Assembly (NCBI GenBank): GCA_964035545.1
Contig: OZ037773.1
Location: forward strand, 2,893,751 to 2,957,750
DNA length: 64,000 bases
Reading direction: 5' to 3'
Origin: Bugula neritina
Lineage: Eukaryota > Bryozoa > Gymnolaemata > Cheilostomatida > Bugulidae
Shown piece after piece: positions 3,101 to 23,400 of this stretch (position 1 is the stretch's first letter; each line of letters begins with the position of its first letter). Position numbers and translations under genes: made by a program. The notes beneath the pieces were generated by a model that made no database searches, was not told the DNA's origin, and saw only the letters and a program-made list of their open reading frames with translations.

Positions 3101-6100
3101 GGCATCAAACTATACCCAGATACTCATCCTGAAACTATTAATAGGACTTGGGCTACTTGAGTCATAAACACGTGCTGCGCGCCGGGCACGGCTTCTACCT
3201 CCCCCTCCCCTTCTCTCTGCCAAATAAAGATCTATGTCTAATATCCAGCCATTATCTTAGCCTTCTATCTGTATTTGATTAAGAATTTGTTTTACCCTTT
3301 TGTGCAATTAAAAGTCTTATCCCATCTTGCCAATTACAAGGATATTTTCTGTAAATGGTTGTTTTGCCTCATGTTTATAGAAATAGCATAAAGTTCACGC
3401 CCACTCAGGTGGAGGCCATACGAGCCGGCACCAACTACGGGCTCACCATGGTGGTCGGACCTCCCGGCACAGGAAAGACAGATGTGGCTGTGCAGATCAT
3501 ATCCAACCTGTACCACAACTTCCCCGAGCAAAGGACCCTCATTGTCACTCACAGTAATCAGGTTGGTACACGTGGGCTACGCCCTTACTTAGCAGTCGGG
3601 TAGCAGTTGGAGCTGAGTCTTATCGAATGTGCGTGTGTAGCCAGGAAGTGCTGTATTCTGCGTACTCATTGTCTCCAAAAGTCATTTCACAGTTTTCTCA
3701 CGGTTTTGCAGTTATGTTTTAGTATACATGGTGTTCAACACATGGTATATGAGACTACTAAACTATCTTAGCATGCAAGTGTAACACAAGTGATGTGAAC
3801 TAATTTTAATTCATGTTGTACAAAGAAGACTTAGGCTGAAGTAGTCGTAGCGGTGATCTGTATATGTTTGCTGTGTTATACATCATAGTATAGTGTATAT
3901 TATTTACCATATGTTTGTCTTATAATACTGTATAGTGTGTAGTATTATACTCTAAGGTGTAGGTAGAATGTAAATGCTGTACGTGTCACTCTGCTACACA
4001 GCATAGTGCTATACTCTGAATATATCTCAATCTAGAACCACATAATTAATATCCTTCACCTGCCACAGGCTCTGAACCAACTGTTTGAGAAGATCATGGA
4101 GCTGGACATTGACGAGAGACACTTACTGCGTATGGGACACGGCGAGGAAGGGCTGGAGACTGACAAGGACTTCAGCAGGTCTGTCTGTTACACCATGTTC
4201 AGTTACTCTCAGGTAGTCTGTCTCTTACACCATGTTCAGTTACTCTCAGGTAGTCTGTCTGTTACACCATGTTCAGTTACTCTCAGGTAGTCTGTCTATT
4301 ACACCATGTTCAGTTACTCTCAGGTAGTCTGTCTCTTACACCATGTTCAGTTACTCTCAGGTAGTCTGTCTATTACACCATATTCAGTTACCCTCACGGT
4401 AGTCTGTCTCTTACATCATGTTCAGTTACTCTCAGGTAGTCTGTCTCTTACACCATGTTCAGTTACTCTCAGGTAGTCTGTCTCTTGCACCGTGTCCAGT
4501 TACTCTCAGGTAGTCTGTCTCTTACACCATGTTCAGTTACTCTCAGGTAGTCTGTCTGTTACACCATGTTCAGTTACTCTCAGGTAGTGTGTCTCTTACA
4601 CCATATTCAGTTACTCTCAGGTAGTCTGTCTCTTACACCATGTTCAGTTACTCTCAGGTAGTCTGTCTCTTACATCATGTTCAGTTACTCTCACGGCGGT
4701 CTGTAAACACAGTCATTAGTATAACTTCTCACTTTTACAACTGCAATAGAAGTTTTATTTGTTCAGAGTTTAGATTTTAAAAGAAAAATGTTCAGCTTGG
4801 CTAAATGTCGGTGCGCCATGTTGTGTGTACAGGTAGATATGCTGTGTGTACAGGTAGATATGCTGTGTGTACAGGTAGATATGCTGTGTGTACAGGTAGA
4901 TATGCTGTGTGTAAAGGTAGATATGCTGTATGTACAGGTAGATATGCTGTGTGTACAGGTAGATATGCTGTGTGTACAGGTAGATATGCTGTGTGTACAG
5001 GTAGATATGCTGTGTGTACAGGTAGATATGCTGTGTGTACAGGTAGATATGCTGTGTGTACAGGTAGATATGCTGTGTGTACAGGTATGGAAGAGTGAAC
5101 TTCGTCTTGTCTCAGCGACTCGCTCTGCTGGAGGAAGTTGGCTGTCTACAAACAAGTTTGGGGGTTCAGGGTGATGTCTCGTACACATGTGAGACAGCCG
5201 CACACTTCTACCTCTACCAGGTAAATCCCGTTATCTCAGGTAAACTCTACCTCTACCAGGTAAACTACTTTAATCAGCTAAACTGTGCCTGGACAGTTCA
5301 ACAGGTGATTTGTCTCTCAGGTACACATTATTATAAGTTAAAAACTATTTCTACCAGACAGATTTAAACTCCCTTAATAAGTTTCCTTTGACCATGTGAT
5401 GAAGGCCATATACATGAGTTGGAGTTTGAAACAAGACCCAGGGTGATAGGTTCAATGCACTAGAGTTATTCACCGGCTTTCCATGGACCGATCTCAGATC
5501 GATCTCAGTGAGATCGATCTGAGATCGGTACATGGAAAGCCCGTGATTGTGAGATGAAGTGTTTATATATATTTTAGCTCTGTTACATAATACTATTTTT
5601 ACTGGCCATCTTTGTCTGTAGAGTGTAATGAATATATCTATGGTATACATTATATTTATGGTATACATTATATCTGTGGTATACAGTATATATATGGTAT
5701 ACAGTATATCTATGGTATACAGTATATCTGTATCCACCAGGTGCTATCAAGGTGGGAGAAATACGCAGGTGGTTATGACACATATAGTCTGGAGCAAGTG
5801 TCATCCGAGTTCCCCTTCCACACCTTCTTCCAGGATGCCCCCCAACCTTTGTTCAAGGGGAAGAGCAAAGAATCGGACTGGGAGATTGCCGAAGGTTGTT
5901 TCCGGCACATCAAACGTATCTTCACACAGCTCGATGTACGTGTAACTGTGAACAGTTAACCAGCAGCGTCGCTGGCATTATTCTCTGCTCTCCAGTTCTG
6001 TTTGCAATAAATATATTTAGTCTTGTTAGTAGTACCATATGCATAGATCTCATGGACATCGTATACACAAGAAAAAATGTAGTTAAAAACATTTTCCTTG

Positions 6101-16413: not shown

Positions 16414-18635
16414 TTAGGATATGCATATTAGTAGAACTGTCATAATAATAGTACAAATAATGGTGGTTGAAAGGGAGAATCCACTTCCTGCATTACACAA
16501 GTCCCCCTTGCACGAACATACCCATACAGAGAATGTTCCATTCCGTCTGATATTGATCTTCGGGTTTGTGCAGTGTGTGTTTGGGTATTTGTTCCCACAG
16601 CTTCTCCTCACTGCAAAGAAAAGAAATGAACTCAAAAAACTTATATATTTAATGGTTGGTTTTGCTAAAGCCTTTTGCCAGGGTCTAAGCATAAAAATGT
16701 AAGGAGATGATGACTCCTATTTTATTCACAATTTTCAATCTCACAATATATGTAATACAATTTCTACTCATTATTTCTAGAATTGGTTATTAATGCTTTT
16801 TAAGTTAGTTTATAATGAATTTGTGATGAATTTAATTTGATAACTTTTTATTATGTTATGATCATTGAGCTTGTCATCAAAATGATTAAAATTATCGGTC
16901 TGTTTTAAAACAATGATTAGTGGTTATATGGCACATGCATAGGGTATGTGTGAGCATTAATGATCTCTTATATGCAATAATTTTCTTTTTAAAAACATAC
17001 AGTACCTACTGGAAAAAAGTCTGAAATATTTCACTCATAAACAAATTTTGACCATGGCAGCAAATAAGGATTAGTGACAACATGATGGCAAAACCTGATC
17101 TGTTAAGAACATTCAAATACTAGTTTTTTACTACATTTGCTACATTTCTTTCTATAAAAATGTTTTGAAACTCAAAATAAACGCATATTTTTTAAACTAA
17201 AATTTTTGTGCTTCTAATCCAAATATTCCAGAGTTTTTGCCTGCACTGTACACATGGAACACTTTGAGTTATTGACAATGTTACCTATATAGTCAGCTGT
17301 GTTATTCACAATACGGATGATATCTTCTTTAGTGCAATATCCGTCATCGTGTATCCCAAGAGGCAGTGTAGAGCAGTTGATGATATCAGAGCTCGGGCTG
17401 CTGTAAGGGTCAGCACAATCATCCTGGTTGTTAGTCCCTCCGCAGACGTAACAGGACGTGGCATGGAGACTTGGTATAAGAACTGTCAGGCACGCATGAC
17501 GGAGGTTAGCAAACAACTCAAAGTTTATTCAAAAACTGCAGTAGACTTTCCAATCAAGTGTAAAATAGATTAAAAAGTTGTTTAGTTTGAAGTGCAATAT
17601 GAGCATTTTTAGTAAAACGTGAAAAATTTTTTGAAGTTGTCTAATCTTAGGATTTTCTGGTTTTGTGTTTACGCTAAGTATGAAACTTGTTTTTCAGACA
17701 AGAAGCTAGTTAAAGTTATAGTACAATGTAAACTATGAAAGCTGTGTAATTGTTTCTATCTTAACTATATACCTGCTTACTAACCAATCAAACTGATACC
17801 ATGCCCTATTCTTTCTTGGTTTGCTCTAATTTATAATAGATTTAAAGTTTTTGTGTAGTTAACCCAAATTAAAATATTTTTTGGCATGTAGATCTCTGCT
17901 AAAAAAAAGAGAAACTTTAATTCTCTGGTTAAATATTTTAAAGTGTATTTGAACTTTAGAATTGGAACGAAGAGGATAAAAATTATTATAATGGTGATGA
18001 TAGAAATGTAATTATAAAATACATCAAATAGCTTTTTAATGGGATCTTTTTAACACAGGCATAAAACTTTAAATTATTTACTTGTTTTCTTTGTGAGTGA
18101 GACAATAAAACCTTCTTGATAATTGATTACTTCTCTGACACAACTTGATAATACTTGACACGAGCTAAGTAATATTTAAGTCTGCAGTTTGCTCAAGTCA
18201 CAATTCAGTGTAGTCAGTGTAGCGAAGCAAAGGAGATAAAAAGATTTCAGTAAACTAAAGATCTCCTAATATTTAGCATCTTCTAGTCTCATCTAAAAAT
18301 TTAAAATCTGCTAGTTTCTACTAACCTATAGCTGCATGCTTTGAAACATATTCTACAATATAGGGCATGAAATATTCCTAAGGCATGTTGCAATCTATTC
18401 ATACGCAATCTACTTTTTATAGCACAACTTTTTGCTTATTCACATAACGTGAGCTTGCTTTTCTCCTGTATATATTCTTGCAATCAATTCAAATAAAACT
18501 ACCAATTCAATAAATAATACAATGATTTCATATTGTAGGAGAGCCCCAAGTTGCAAACCAACCAAACCAGTAACTATATTGATATAAAATCTTACCAACG
18601 AAGGCAAAGAGTGTAACGATTATATGAGTATCCAT
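16414..18635 (-). CDS. Ly6/uPAR three-finger protein, gene 1 (divergent)
   Basis: Three exons on the minus strand: 18635-18596 (ATG), 17482-17285 and 16610-16414 (TAA), joined by two phase-1 introns, giving 144 residues. Exon 1 codes for a hydrophobic leader (MDTHIIVTLFAFV). The mature part starts near SCYVCGG (residues 23-29). It has ten cysteines in the Ly6/uPAR order, ending VCSCKGDLCN, then a hydrophobic tail (SLSTTIICTIIMTVLLICIS) that fits a GPI-anchor signal. This pattern predicts a small disulphide-rich cell-surface protein, resembling the quiver/sleepless-like group. It is the most diverged member of the array and lacks the SQLTYSAALV tail of the others. Possible N-glycosylation sites occur in exon 2 (NNTAD, NCST). 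The ligand or function is unknown. No other start codon fits the exon 1 frame. Confidence 0.85.
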
Positions 18636-19159
18636 TAAGCATCCCATCCATATATCCAAAACCTAATGAGCTCTTGTCTAATAGGACAGTACTCTACATG
18701 TATAGCAACATACATTGTTGTCACATCTCTAAATGCATGTGTGCACAATTATGATGGTTATAGCTGGCGTCATTTTCAACTACTATTTCATGCCATACAT
18801 CATCCCTGTGGACATGGTAATGCCTCATTCCCAATAAAATACAGTCATGAAAATAACTATTATAACTATTATAGCTTTTCTTGATCATTGTACCTCTATT
18901 TTATTGGTTTTGTGTTGATTTTGGTTGAGAAATATTGCACCAAGTATATTATTTTCATAATACATCGCCAATTGTTAGTAAAGTTGATGCATGACTATTG
19001 TATTGTAAGTTTTCATATTCTTTAGTTTTTCTAATACATTGTGTTGTGTTACGGCAGCCCAAATTACAATACCCGCATGCATGACAATATAAAATGGTTT
19101 ATGCTACATGTTTACAGTAGAGCAGTTACTAATTCTCAGACTATAGAATTAAATATATA

Positions 19160-19233
19160 TATGGTGTGGGCCATGGTACTCTGTTCTGTGCTGATGAGGG
19201 GACAAATTTCGAAACAGCTGCTGTCCACAGATT

Positions 19234-19236
<3 letters not shown>
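19160..19236 (+). ncRNA. Hammerhead ribozyme motif, copy 1 (type I, short stem III)
   Basis: Core CTGATGA at 19191-19197, GAA at 19211-19213, A15.1-U16.1 pair 19214/19224 and C17 at 19225, with predicted cleavage between 19225 and 19226. Stem I pairs TCTGTG (19185-19190) with CACAGA (19226-19231). Stem III is ACAG/CTGT with a 3-nt loop (19214-19224). Stem II is closed by G19198-C19210 followed by two G-U pairs, where copy 2 has G-C pairs. All nucleotides of the conserved hammerhead core are present. The motif is followed directly by (TA)n. Confidence 0.85.

Positions 19237-19297
<61 letters not shown>
19237..19297. repeat. (TA)n microsatellite between two hammerhead motifs
   Basis: About 30 TA units with no interruption. 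It forms the centre of a ~215-bp inverted repeat made of two copies of the same hammerhead-bearing sequence. Confidence 0.95.
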
Positions 19298-19301
<4 letters not shown>

Positions 19302-19375
19302 AATCTGTGGACAGCAGCTGTTTCGGGATTTGTCCCCTCATCAGCACAGAACAGAGTACCATAGCCCACACCTTC
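19298..19375 (-). ncRNA. Hammerhead ribozyme motif, copy 2 (inverted)
   Basis: Minus strand: CTGATGA at 19344-19338. Stem II is GGG/CCC around ACAAAT (19337-19325), GAA is at 19324-19322, stem III ACAG/CTGT at 19321-19311 and C17 at 19310. Stem I pairs TCTGTG (19350-19345) with CACAGA (19309-19304). Stem II is a perfect G-C stem here, so this copy looks fully intact. Upstream GGTGTGGGCTATGGTACTCTG matches copy 1 with one change, showing that the repeat extends beyond the ribozyme. Confidence 0.87.
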
Positions 19376-19376
19376 G

Positions 19377-19506
<130 letters not shown>

Positions 19507-19957
19507 ACAATTATAACAGCTCTGGTTTTACAGTTTAATGACCTGTTTTGAAGTGTCAACACAAACTATGAAGTAATACAACTGCTGAAATCGATGAAGA
19601 ACAAATTAGAGGAGGAATTACTAATTAGTCTAATCTTTGCTGGTTTTGCTGTTCAACAAACTCAGAGCCTTTAAACAAACTTATTTTCACAAGGAAATTT
19701 GTTCTAATTCAATTTTAGAAGCAATCATCTGTAATTAGTCTGCTTACTTTAAAATTGCAAAACCAATAATATATAATCGCATCACCAAATATGATTTATT
19801 CTGATATTGAATGCTGTGAAGCATAGGTAAGAAACAAGCTACCTCAACAGTTGAAAATAAACAAACGTAAACCCAATACATATTTCAGTTTATTAAGGTA
19901 GTGAAGTTCTAATAATATATCTTTTTAACAGACAATGAGTTTGTATAACGAATTTCT

Positions 19958-20105
19958 CTATAAGCAGCTCCGAGTTGAGGGTGACTGAGTTCAGTAGTTT
20001 AGGGGGTCTTAACTTTGGAGTTGAAGCTCTACTAAAGCCTCCAAGTTTAAACTCAAACACCCAAGCTACTGCACTCAGTCACCTCTAACTCGCAACTGCT
20101 TATAG
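19958..20105. mobile_element. Foldback MITE, copy 1
   Basis: ~148 bp with arms of about 40-45 bp: TATAAGCAGCTCCGAGTTGA at the left is the inverse of TAACTCGCAACTGCTTATA at the right. The inner parts (GGTGACTGAGTTCAGTAG versus CTACTGCACTCAGTCACC) also pair. A related copy is at 63221-63384. Confidence 0.8.
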
Positions 20106-22036: not shown

Positions 22037-23400
22037 TTAAAGTTTTGCTTTTACACATATAACAGCATTTTACTGCAACTACTAATTCAAGTTAACTTTG
22101 AATATAAGTTTAATCTTTGTTTATATGATACATGCACTCTTATTTGTTTTAACTGATCTAATCAATTACTTTTGTCTATGGCAGTTATCATTTTTATAAT
22201 ACATTTTAATATTTTTAGTAGAACTATAATGTCCTTTCCTAGAGTCAAACTCACCCTAGCTATAGCCACTAAAGGCAAGAGGTGAGTAATTCAGAATTTG
22301 TATATATTATGTTTGAATACATTACAGCTTCATAAATATTTTTTGTTCGTTTTATTTTAAAAACCTATTATAATTACATATTTTGACCTACTTTTACAGC
22401 TTCTTACGGCAGTTGGAATAAGTATAGATAAAGTTACTAACACCAACACCAGTACAACTCATCTGTAGTTAGTGGCCACGCTAGCTACAATATTGTGTAT
22501 GGGGCATGGGTACTCAGCTGTCTCTCTATTTTGTTTGTAGCTTGAAAGTATTTAAAAGCCGAATTCATAAACGTAGGTTTGCTTTTTGGTGGGTGTGTAA
22601 AATAGGTTTTTCCTTCCACAGCAGGAAAGAAAAAATAAGATCATTTATTCATTGCATACTGAAAGACAAGAGGGCTCAACTCCCAGATAGCCTGCAGCAG
22701 GTGTTGATGAACAAATGTGGAAGCTGAACTTAGAGAGTCTGTTGAAATCTGCATGCATGAAATGTGGTATTTGGAAAAAAATAAAATTTGTGTGAGACCA
22801 GCAGTATGAATTATGTGTATTGAATGTGATGCAAGAATGTTATTAGTTGCAGTCCGAAACAAAGAGCTCATATAAGAACTAACATTTGAATTGCTATATA
22901 AGTGTTTGGATGAACCGTCTTCAACTTATTACAGTAAACTAAAATAACTGTAGCGTCGCCACTAACTATAGATGAGTTGTACTGGTGTTGGTTTTCGTAA
23001 CTTTATTTTTACTTATTCCAACTGCCGTAAGAAACTATAAAAGTAGGTTAATATATACAATTATATTAGGTTTTTAAAACAAAACAAACAAAAATTATTT
23101 ATGACATTGTAAAGTATTCAAACATATATGCGGATTTTAGATTAATCACCTCTTGCCTTCTTTTAGTGGCTAGCTATAAGGGTGAGTTTGACTCTAGGAA
23201 ATGACATTGTAGGTCTACTAAAAATAATGAAGTTTATAATAAAAATGACAACAAATGATAACTGCCATAGACAAAGTTAATTATCAGTTAAGACAAGTAT
23301 TAGTGCATGTATCACATAAACAAAGATTGAACTTGTATTCAAAGTTGACTCGAATTAGTAGTTGCAGTGAATTACTGTTATGAGTAAAAGTAAAACTTTA
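22037..23400. mobile_element. Long inverted-repeat (foldback) element
   Basis: Arms of about 450 bp (22037-22484 and 22951-23400) are reverse complements at high but imperfect identity, around a spacer of about 465 bp. Matching landmarks are GTTTTGCTTTTACACATATA / its inverse near 23380-23400, CTAGAGTCAAACTCACCCT (about 22239) / AGGGTGAGTTTGACTCTAG (about 23180), and the inner ends at the CTGTAGTTAGTGGCCACGC region. No protein-coding content is recognised in the spacer. Confidence 0.8.

Follow-up and report, generated by a model that had tools for sequence, protein, structure and literature searches.

Animal retrozymes have been reported as abundant circular RNAs, and Penelope-like elements (PLEs) have been proposed as a strong candidate source of the re-inserting enzyme (Cervera and de la Pena 2020, PMC7229834). 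A review describes the role of PLE hammerheads as a mystery and reports no conserved motif in retrozyme repeats that points to a helper (PMC7761336). A study of Poseidon, a PLE of the green anole (Frangieh et al. 2024, PMC11167929), showed that reverse transcription of this element begins internally at two neighbouring sites, which are reflected in the genome as short and long tails, that RNA downstream of the start site is needed and that both DNA strands are cut and extended. In vitro, the PLE hammerhead was dispensable and the main substrate was unprocessed RNA; the words circular, retrozyme and non-autonomous are absent from the main text of that paper.

The locus described here is relevant to the way in which such ribozyme-bearing elements move. 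The window, the 64,000-nt stretch of Bugula neritina DNA that was analysed, likely carries two 5'-truncated insertions of a 271-nt non-LTR retrozyme that is mobilised by a PLE, probably from an RNA circle made by the ribozyme.

Two hammerhead motifs in the window

Both motifs at 19163..19381 contain a complete type I hammerhead core and three helices and are open at stem I, as the first-pass annotation had claimed and as direct reading of the letters and descriptor matches confirmed. The plus-strand ribozyme (19185..19231) is composed of stem I (19185-19190/19226-19231), CUGAUGA (19191-19197), stem II (GGGG 19198-19201/UUUC 19207-19210), GAA (19211-19213), stem III (ACAG 19214-19217/CUGU 19221-19224, with a CUG loop) and C17 (19225), with cleavage predicted between C19225 and C19226. 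The minus-strand ribozyme, read between 19350 and 19304, is built in the same way, with C17 at 19310 and GGGG/UCCC as stem II. Cuts after C19225 and C19310, which had been named beforehand, are right as predicted C17 sites. The G-U pairs said to preserve stem II of the plus copy are indeed kept, but the helix is weak because it consists of one G-C and three G-U pairs. Stem I can extend outward through an internal loop (UGU/UU) into a CUC/GAG helix. Within the 64-kb window, a descriptor combining the core with the three helices matched these two sites and no others, and it had no match in 25.6 Mb of simulated first-order Markov sequence, in agreement with the earlier judgement that a chance origin is unlikely.

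The arrangement of the two motifs had been described as head-to-head, which is wrong; the copies lie tail-to-tail, with their 3' ends facing across a 62-bp (TA)n tract at 19237-19298 that includes the last bases of both ends. The cores had also been treated as units in themselves, whereas each is the tip of a longer 5'-truncated insertion. Taking phase 1 as the first base 3' of the predicted cleavage site, the plus-strand insertion (19163..19240) covers unit phases 209-271 and then 1-15, and the minus-strand insertion (19295..19381) covers phases 200-271 and then 1-15, with a second (TA)n tract on its 5' side (19379..19503). The plus copy carries two C-to-T changes (phases 254 and 255), both in stem II, and the minus copy a single change, C218T, outside the ribozyme core. 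Each window copy has one cleavage site, so release of a unit-length RNA is impossible from either and only multi-unit copies could provide it.

The Rfam covariance check that had been proposed for the two copies remained below threshold, which is formally the outcome named in advance as refuting the ribozymes. No family reached its gathering threshold in the 64-kb window, and no hammerhead family was among the 50 Rfam matches at E<=10 in 18500-20000, which contains both copies. Scanned alone, the plus copy gave RAGATH-1-hammerhead as its best match (E 1.2; 15.2 bits, the cut-off being 56.3), aligned with the core and helices in the expected register. A tandem copy (locus L026) had no hammerhead match to Rfam, and a genome-wide search with RF00163 gave no match, as was also the case for the control genomes. 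We gave the sub-threshold score little weight because the best-scoring hammerhead alignment places core and helices as expected, and because the motif recurs within an element that has retrozyme-like ends and arrays. MicroRNA-like and other Rfam matches over the inverted repeat were all below the gathering score and were set aside as probably an effect of the palindrome.

Nearest-neighbour folding, a model outside which tertiary contacts lie, preferred a rival fold by 2.9 kcal/mol for the minus copy and for an internal unit of L026, and by 4.8 kcal/mol for the plus copy. Stem III could also pair between two molecules, with 10 of 11 positions matching when counted by hand; hammerheads of amphibian retrozymes have been reported to work as dimers (PMC7229834). 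The 12 core bases were kept in 53 of 55 ungapped hammerhead segments (58 in total, three gapped ones left out) and all 14 pairs in 54 of 55, rates that are biased by the selection of most copies for ribozyme similarity; core conservation was dropped as a sign of selection owing to this biased choice of copies.

Elsewhere in the window, a large inverted repeat at 22059-23381 (arms of 176, 99 and 74 nt, 88-89% complementary) is possibly a snap-back transposon. Several short cysteine-rich open stretches at 16414-53435 resemble what we take to be Ly6/uPAR-type proteins, and the exons between 3355 and 9296 are presumably helicase-like.

Unit and copy number of the retrozyme

The full element is a 271-bp unit that occurs singly or in head-to-tail arrays, with near-identical copies on several contigs (C1-C9) of the 215.8-Mb assembly. 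L026, for example, comprises three complete head-to-tail units with a period of 271 nt, plus a few bases of a fourth. Similarity searches with DNA scored only the best of their candidates (about 40 of 707, 708 and 496), and copy counts were therefore taken from pattern searches. With at most two mismatches, 452 genomic places matched 40 nt of the ribozyme, compared to 0 in a backward control; viral contigs had no match to the ribozyme pattern. The best 40 of the 496 candidates for the middle of the unit were all 100% identical, which indicates that part of the retrozyme family is young.

The unit has a GC content of 43%, below 50%, and is non-coding, as the longest open stretch is 45 codons in a concatemer. 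Its RNA is strongly self-paired (71.6% of bases paired, z -8.3, none of 200 shuffles equally stable). A 271-nt unit with one type I hammerhead and tandem copies falls within the definition of metazoan non-LTR retrozymes, which have units of 170-400 nt.

For mapping of insertion ends, 43 places were considered and L033 was dropped as its flanks equal those of L032, leaving 42 copies. Loci L009-L042 were picked by ribozyme similarity and L053-L055 for being arrays, and L051 and L052 supply in full copies that had been cut at a locus edge. Also left out of the counts were L001-L008, which overlap later loci, and L034:682-715, a 34-nt match of 85% that is below the mapping cut-off. An A12G-marked subfamily was observed at L022:6458-6606, L052 and L055:1-82 and in many of the two-mismatch rows of the unit-junction search; the three named copies also have the core change G257A at a CpG, in L052 in one of its two units.

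Insertion ends and arrays

In 41 of the 42 mapped copies the 3' end was located at phase 15, at a distance of 15 nt from the predicted cut; the remaining copy, L035, reads 13 owing to a shifted base beside the TA tract. TA follows the 3' end directly in 41 of 42 copies, the exception being L029, which runs into (AC)n. Genome-wide searches found 458 3' ends in TA and 116 internal unit-unit junctions, with 0 of either in the control. The unit contains two AUAU sites (phases 12 and 171), and only the phase-12 site is seen as a 3' end among the mapped copies. The start of copying is therefore not determined by TA complementarity alone.

The 5' flank is TA-rich in 37 of 42 rows, without it being so in L013, L028, L030, L039 and L041; in this count L033 is included and L055:1-82 excluded, and the flanks of L051 and L052 are clearer in L031 and L036. 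The 5' ends are variable, and 11 of 41 are at phases 10-12 against 0.45 expected if they were uniform (L055:1-82, at a locus edge, was excluded). Nine of these 11 copies are single full turns, while L051 makes two turns (2.02 units) and L053 four (4.01 units); 56 starts of this type were found genome-wide. Fixed 3' ends and variable 5' ends in (TA)n, dispersed on C1-C9, are marks of retrotransposition.

Arrays of more than 1.1 units account for 11 of the 42 copies, three of which (L053-L055) had been picked as arrays. At least one variant is shared between units in six of the 11, namely L037 and L051-L055. The three full units of L054 all carry G37T, the two units of L051 agree in G193C, and the two full units of L055 agree in A30T and in a deletion at 229 that its partial unit does not have; L037 and L052 have unit-shared variants that are also present at other loci. 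Four arrays (L017, L019, L023 and L029) have unshared variants only, and L026 has no variants. The sharing of variants is thus mixed, and is compatible with the copying of one circle without being proof of it. In the four-unit array L053:431-1519, the combination 264G-10T-19A is found at the three internal junctions and is absent at the terminal junction, a pattern that suggests later expansion of the array after insertion rather than one circular template.

Inverted pairs were also observed. The head-to-head pair at L019:4328-4461 (-) and 4645-4967 (+) has A201T in both members, and the tail-to-tail pair at L020:4438-4713 (+) and 4780-5054 (-) has G37T and C115T in both, G37T being present in L054 as well. 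Each pair may derive from one template, perhaps copied onto both DNA strands.

A Penelope-like element with the same target and hairpin

A relaxed descriptor applied to the fetched loci revealed further hammerheads in the flanks of L009 and L015, with (TA)n starting about 45 to 60 nt past their predicted cuts. One of these is part of a repeat for which 40 of 275 first-look candidates were scored, and which is tandem at 2602-2605 bp, occurs also in inverted pairs and has its own hammerhead in a repeated UTR. A PLE had initially been assumed to be absent from the genome, an assumption overturned by this 2.6-kb hammerhead-bearing tandem element. We call it Penelope-like on the basis of RT-like motifs read by eye, tandem copies, the hammerhead and two tails. 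The presence of a hammerhead-bearing PLE and a 271-bp array-forming element in one genome bears out the link to animal PLEs and retrozymes made by the first-pass annotation, the interpretation of which is, as a whole, partly supported. Another two hammerheads close to (TA)n, at L009:4366 (+) and L015:9000 (-), are more divergent and possibly represent older PLE families.

The L058 copy of the PLE has a 715-aa open frame, and the L057 copy is interrupted. The 715-aa frame had no match to Pfam RVT_1 or GIY-YIG, and 2251 of 8000 scored proteins were related to it at E<=0.001; among the relatives listed (120 of 2251) were proteins of Solemya velum (Mollusca; bivalve) and Watersipora subatra (Bryozoa). 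Four relatives were scanned in Pfam, of which one matched RVT_1 (P0080, 25.9 bits, below the cut-off of 29.6), one matched GIY-YIG (P0001, 26.2 bits, above the cut-off of 22.6) and two matched neither; P0080 and P0001 are each 52% identical to the frame over the aligned part. A GIY-YIG search of the genome returned one match among four candidates, SLX1-like by eye, and a PLE RT motif pattern matched only two places, each with one mismatch. Viral contigs contained no PLE relative.

PLE ends were fetched for 20 of the 40 scored places, and all 20 run into TA, 11 near a short site and nine at a long site located 80-81 nt beyond it; three of the 11 short ends (L063, L064 and L073) are a few nt before the usual position. 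One further array end, in L057, runs into (TG)n instead. Head-to-head PLE pairs were seen in L057, L058 and L075/L076, one arm having a short-site end and the other a long-site end. In L061 a PLE 3' end faces, across a single (TA)n tract, a sequence that by eye resembles a decayed retrozyme.

Comparison of the two elements identified a bulged hairpin, GCUC-stem-UU-GAGCACU, that occurs twice in the retrozyme and twice in the PLE just past end points. In tandem PLE copies GCTC, a stem-loop, TT and GAGCACT begin 4 nt after each end point, and in the retrozyme a hairpin of the same design begins 3 nt after the end point; the second retrozyme hairpin has no used end point before it. The spacing between the TTGAGCACT words is 82 nt in the retrozyme and 79 nt in the PLE, and the upper stems of all four hairpins pair, though their sequences differ. 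The full hairpin descriptor was matched in 0 of 20,000 retrozyme shuffles (three with a looser descriptor) and once in 29.7 Mb of simulated sequence, and in 262 kb of real sequence its matches were confined to the two elements, statistics that overstate the evidence because the descriptor was written after both elements had been viewed. The longest word common to retrozyme and PLE (12 nt) is not significant alone, being reached in 110 of 2000 shuffles. It is the like placement beside end points that weighs most in favour of the hairpin link.

Proposed mechanism and alternatives

In the mechanism that we propose, multi-unit genomic copies would be transcribed, the type I hammerhead of each unit would cut the RNA into 271-nt pieces and, by analogy with published retrozymes, a host ligase would close these pieces into circles. 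The RT/endonuclease of the PLE would recognise the bulged hairpin common to both RNAs, cut (TA)n DNA and start reverse transcription at the AU-rich site 3-4 nt upstream of the hairpin. Copying would proceed round the circle and stop early, giving 5' truncation, at whole turns, or after several turns, giving arrays. The two end sites of the PLE mirror the two RT start sites published for the anole PLE.

The position of the retrozyme start, 15 nt past the cleavage site, implies a template that is uncut or re-ligated there, and since the hairpin is downstream of the end point and the published PLE needs downstream RNA, the template should extend past that point. A cut monomer left linear is thus a misfit, and an uncut multimer or a closed circle fits. 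The first of these would be an uncut multi-unit linear transcript of the same element, used by the same PLE helper through internal initiation, the ribozyme being incidental to insertion. Such a template is consistent with the internal initiation of published PLEs and with ribozyme mutants that insert equally well in vitro (PMC11167929), and any uncut RNA is compatible with an end fixed 15 nt beyond the cut. Peaks of 5' ends at one, two and four turns are, however, not predicted from a linear template, except where they result from TA microhomology at phase 12, and we regard the linear template as rather unlikely. A circle is favoured by whole-turn stops because copying meets its own start there, and the phase-12 microhomology could contribute to such stops.

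It is less probable again, and in our judgement very unlikely, that an ordinary LINE moves the element and that the (TA)n in common with the PLE reflects a shared AT preference. RVT_1 had 2124 first-look candidates, many of the 150 scored having long open frames, and repeats of Nematostella have been reported with LINE-like 15-bp duplications (PMC4918200); yet none of four LINE-like families, with two copies each, ends in (TA)n, and eight pieces of 3.6-3.7 kb from these families, from the RT onward, contained no such hairpin on either strand. Three LINE-like families (L043-L048) each terminate in a short repeat of their own, for example (ACAA)n or (GTAA)n. The spread of the arrays by recombination as satellite DNA, with hammerheads as relics, would accommodate the variant pattern of L053, which fits unequal exchange, but this origin is highly improbable in view of the dispersed insertions in (TA)n, whose 3' end is constant and whose 5' ends vary, and of the complete identity of the best 40 unit-middle candidates.

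PLE-driven copying of a circular retrozyme RNA may have a wider bearing. We tentatively suggest, with somewhat less confidence than doubt, that animal retrozymes are parasites of PLEs copied from ribozyme-made circles into (TA)n, and that the hammerhead of PLEs acts likewise, with tandem copies and pseudo-LTRs arising from circular PLE RNA. If this is true, the circle is entered by the PLE enzyme next to the common hairpin, at an AU-rich site, and is copied for one or more whole turns. Near-identical copies, the 715-aa frame and the common target and hairpin make the choice of helper and circular templating testable with one protein and two short RNAs.

Comparison with known systems

The plant LTR retrozymes (PMC4918200) resemble the proposed system in having hammerhead-made circular RNA intermediates and an RT supplied by another element, features that would apply here by inference. 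They mostly have type III hammerheads in LTRs, a primer-binding site and 4-bp target duplications, whereas the element here has a type I hammerhead and a (TA)n target.

Closer to the PLE of this genome is Poseidon, as described in the green anole (PMC11167929), which likewise has tandem pLTR copies, a hammerhead, AT-rich targets and two tails, in the anole corresponding to two internal RT start sites. Whereas the start sites of the anole PLE are not homologous to the cut DNA, the putative ones here are AU-rich and similar to the (TA)n target; they also precede bulged hairpins, and a non-coding retrozyme has the same signal.

The retrozyme itself agrees with the metazoan non-LTR retrozymes as described by Cervera and de la Pena (PMC7229834) in having one type I hammerhead per unit of 170-400 nt, head-to-tail copies, a GC content below 50%, strongly self-paired RNA and hammerhead-bearing PLEs in the same genome. 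It is set apart from that description by 3' ends fixed in (TA)n, by 5' end peaks at whole turns and by a hairpin common to the retrozyme and its resident PLE.
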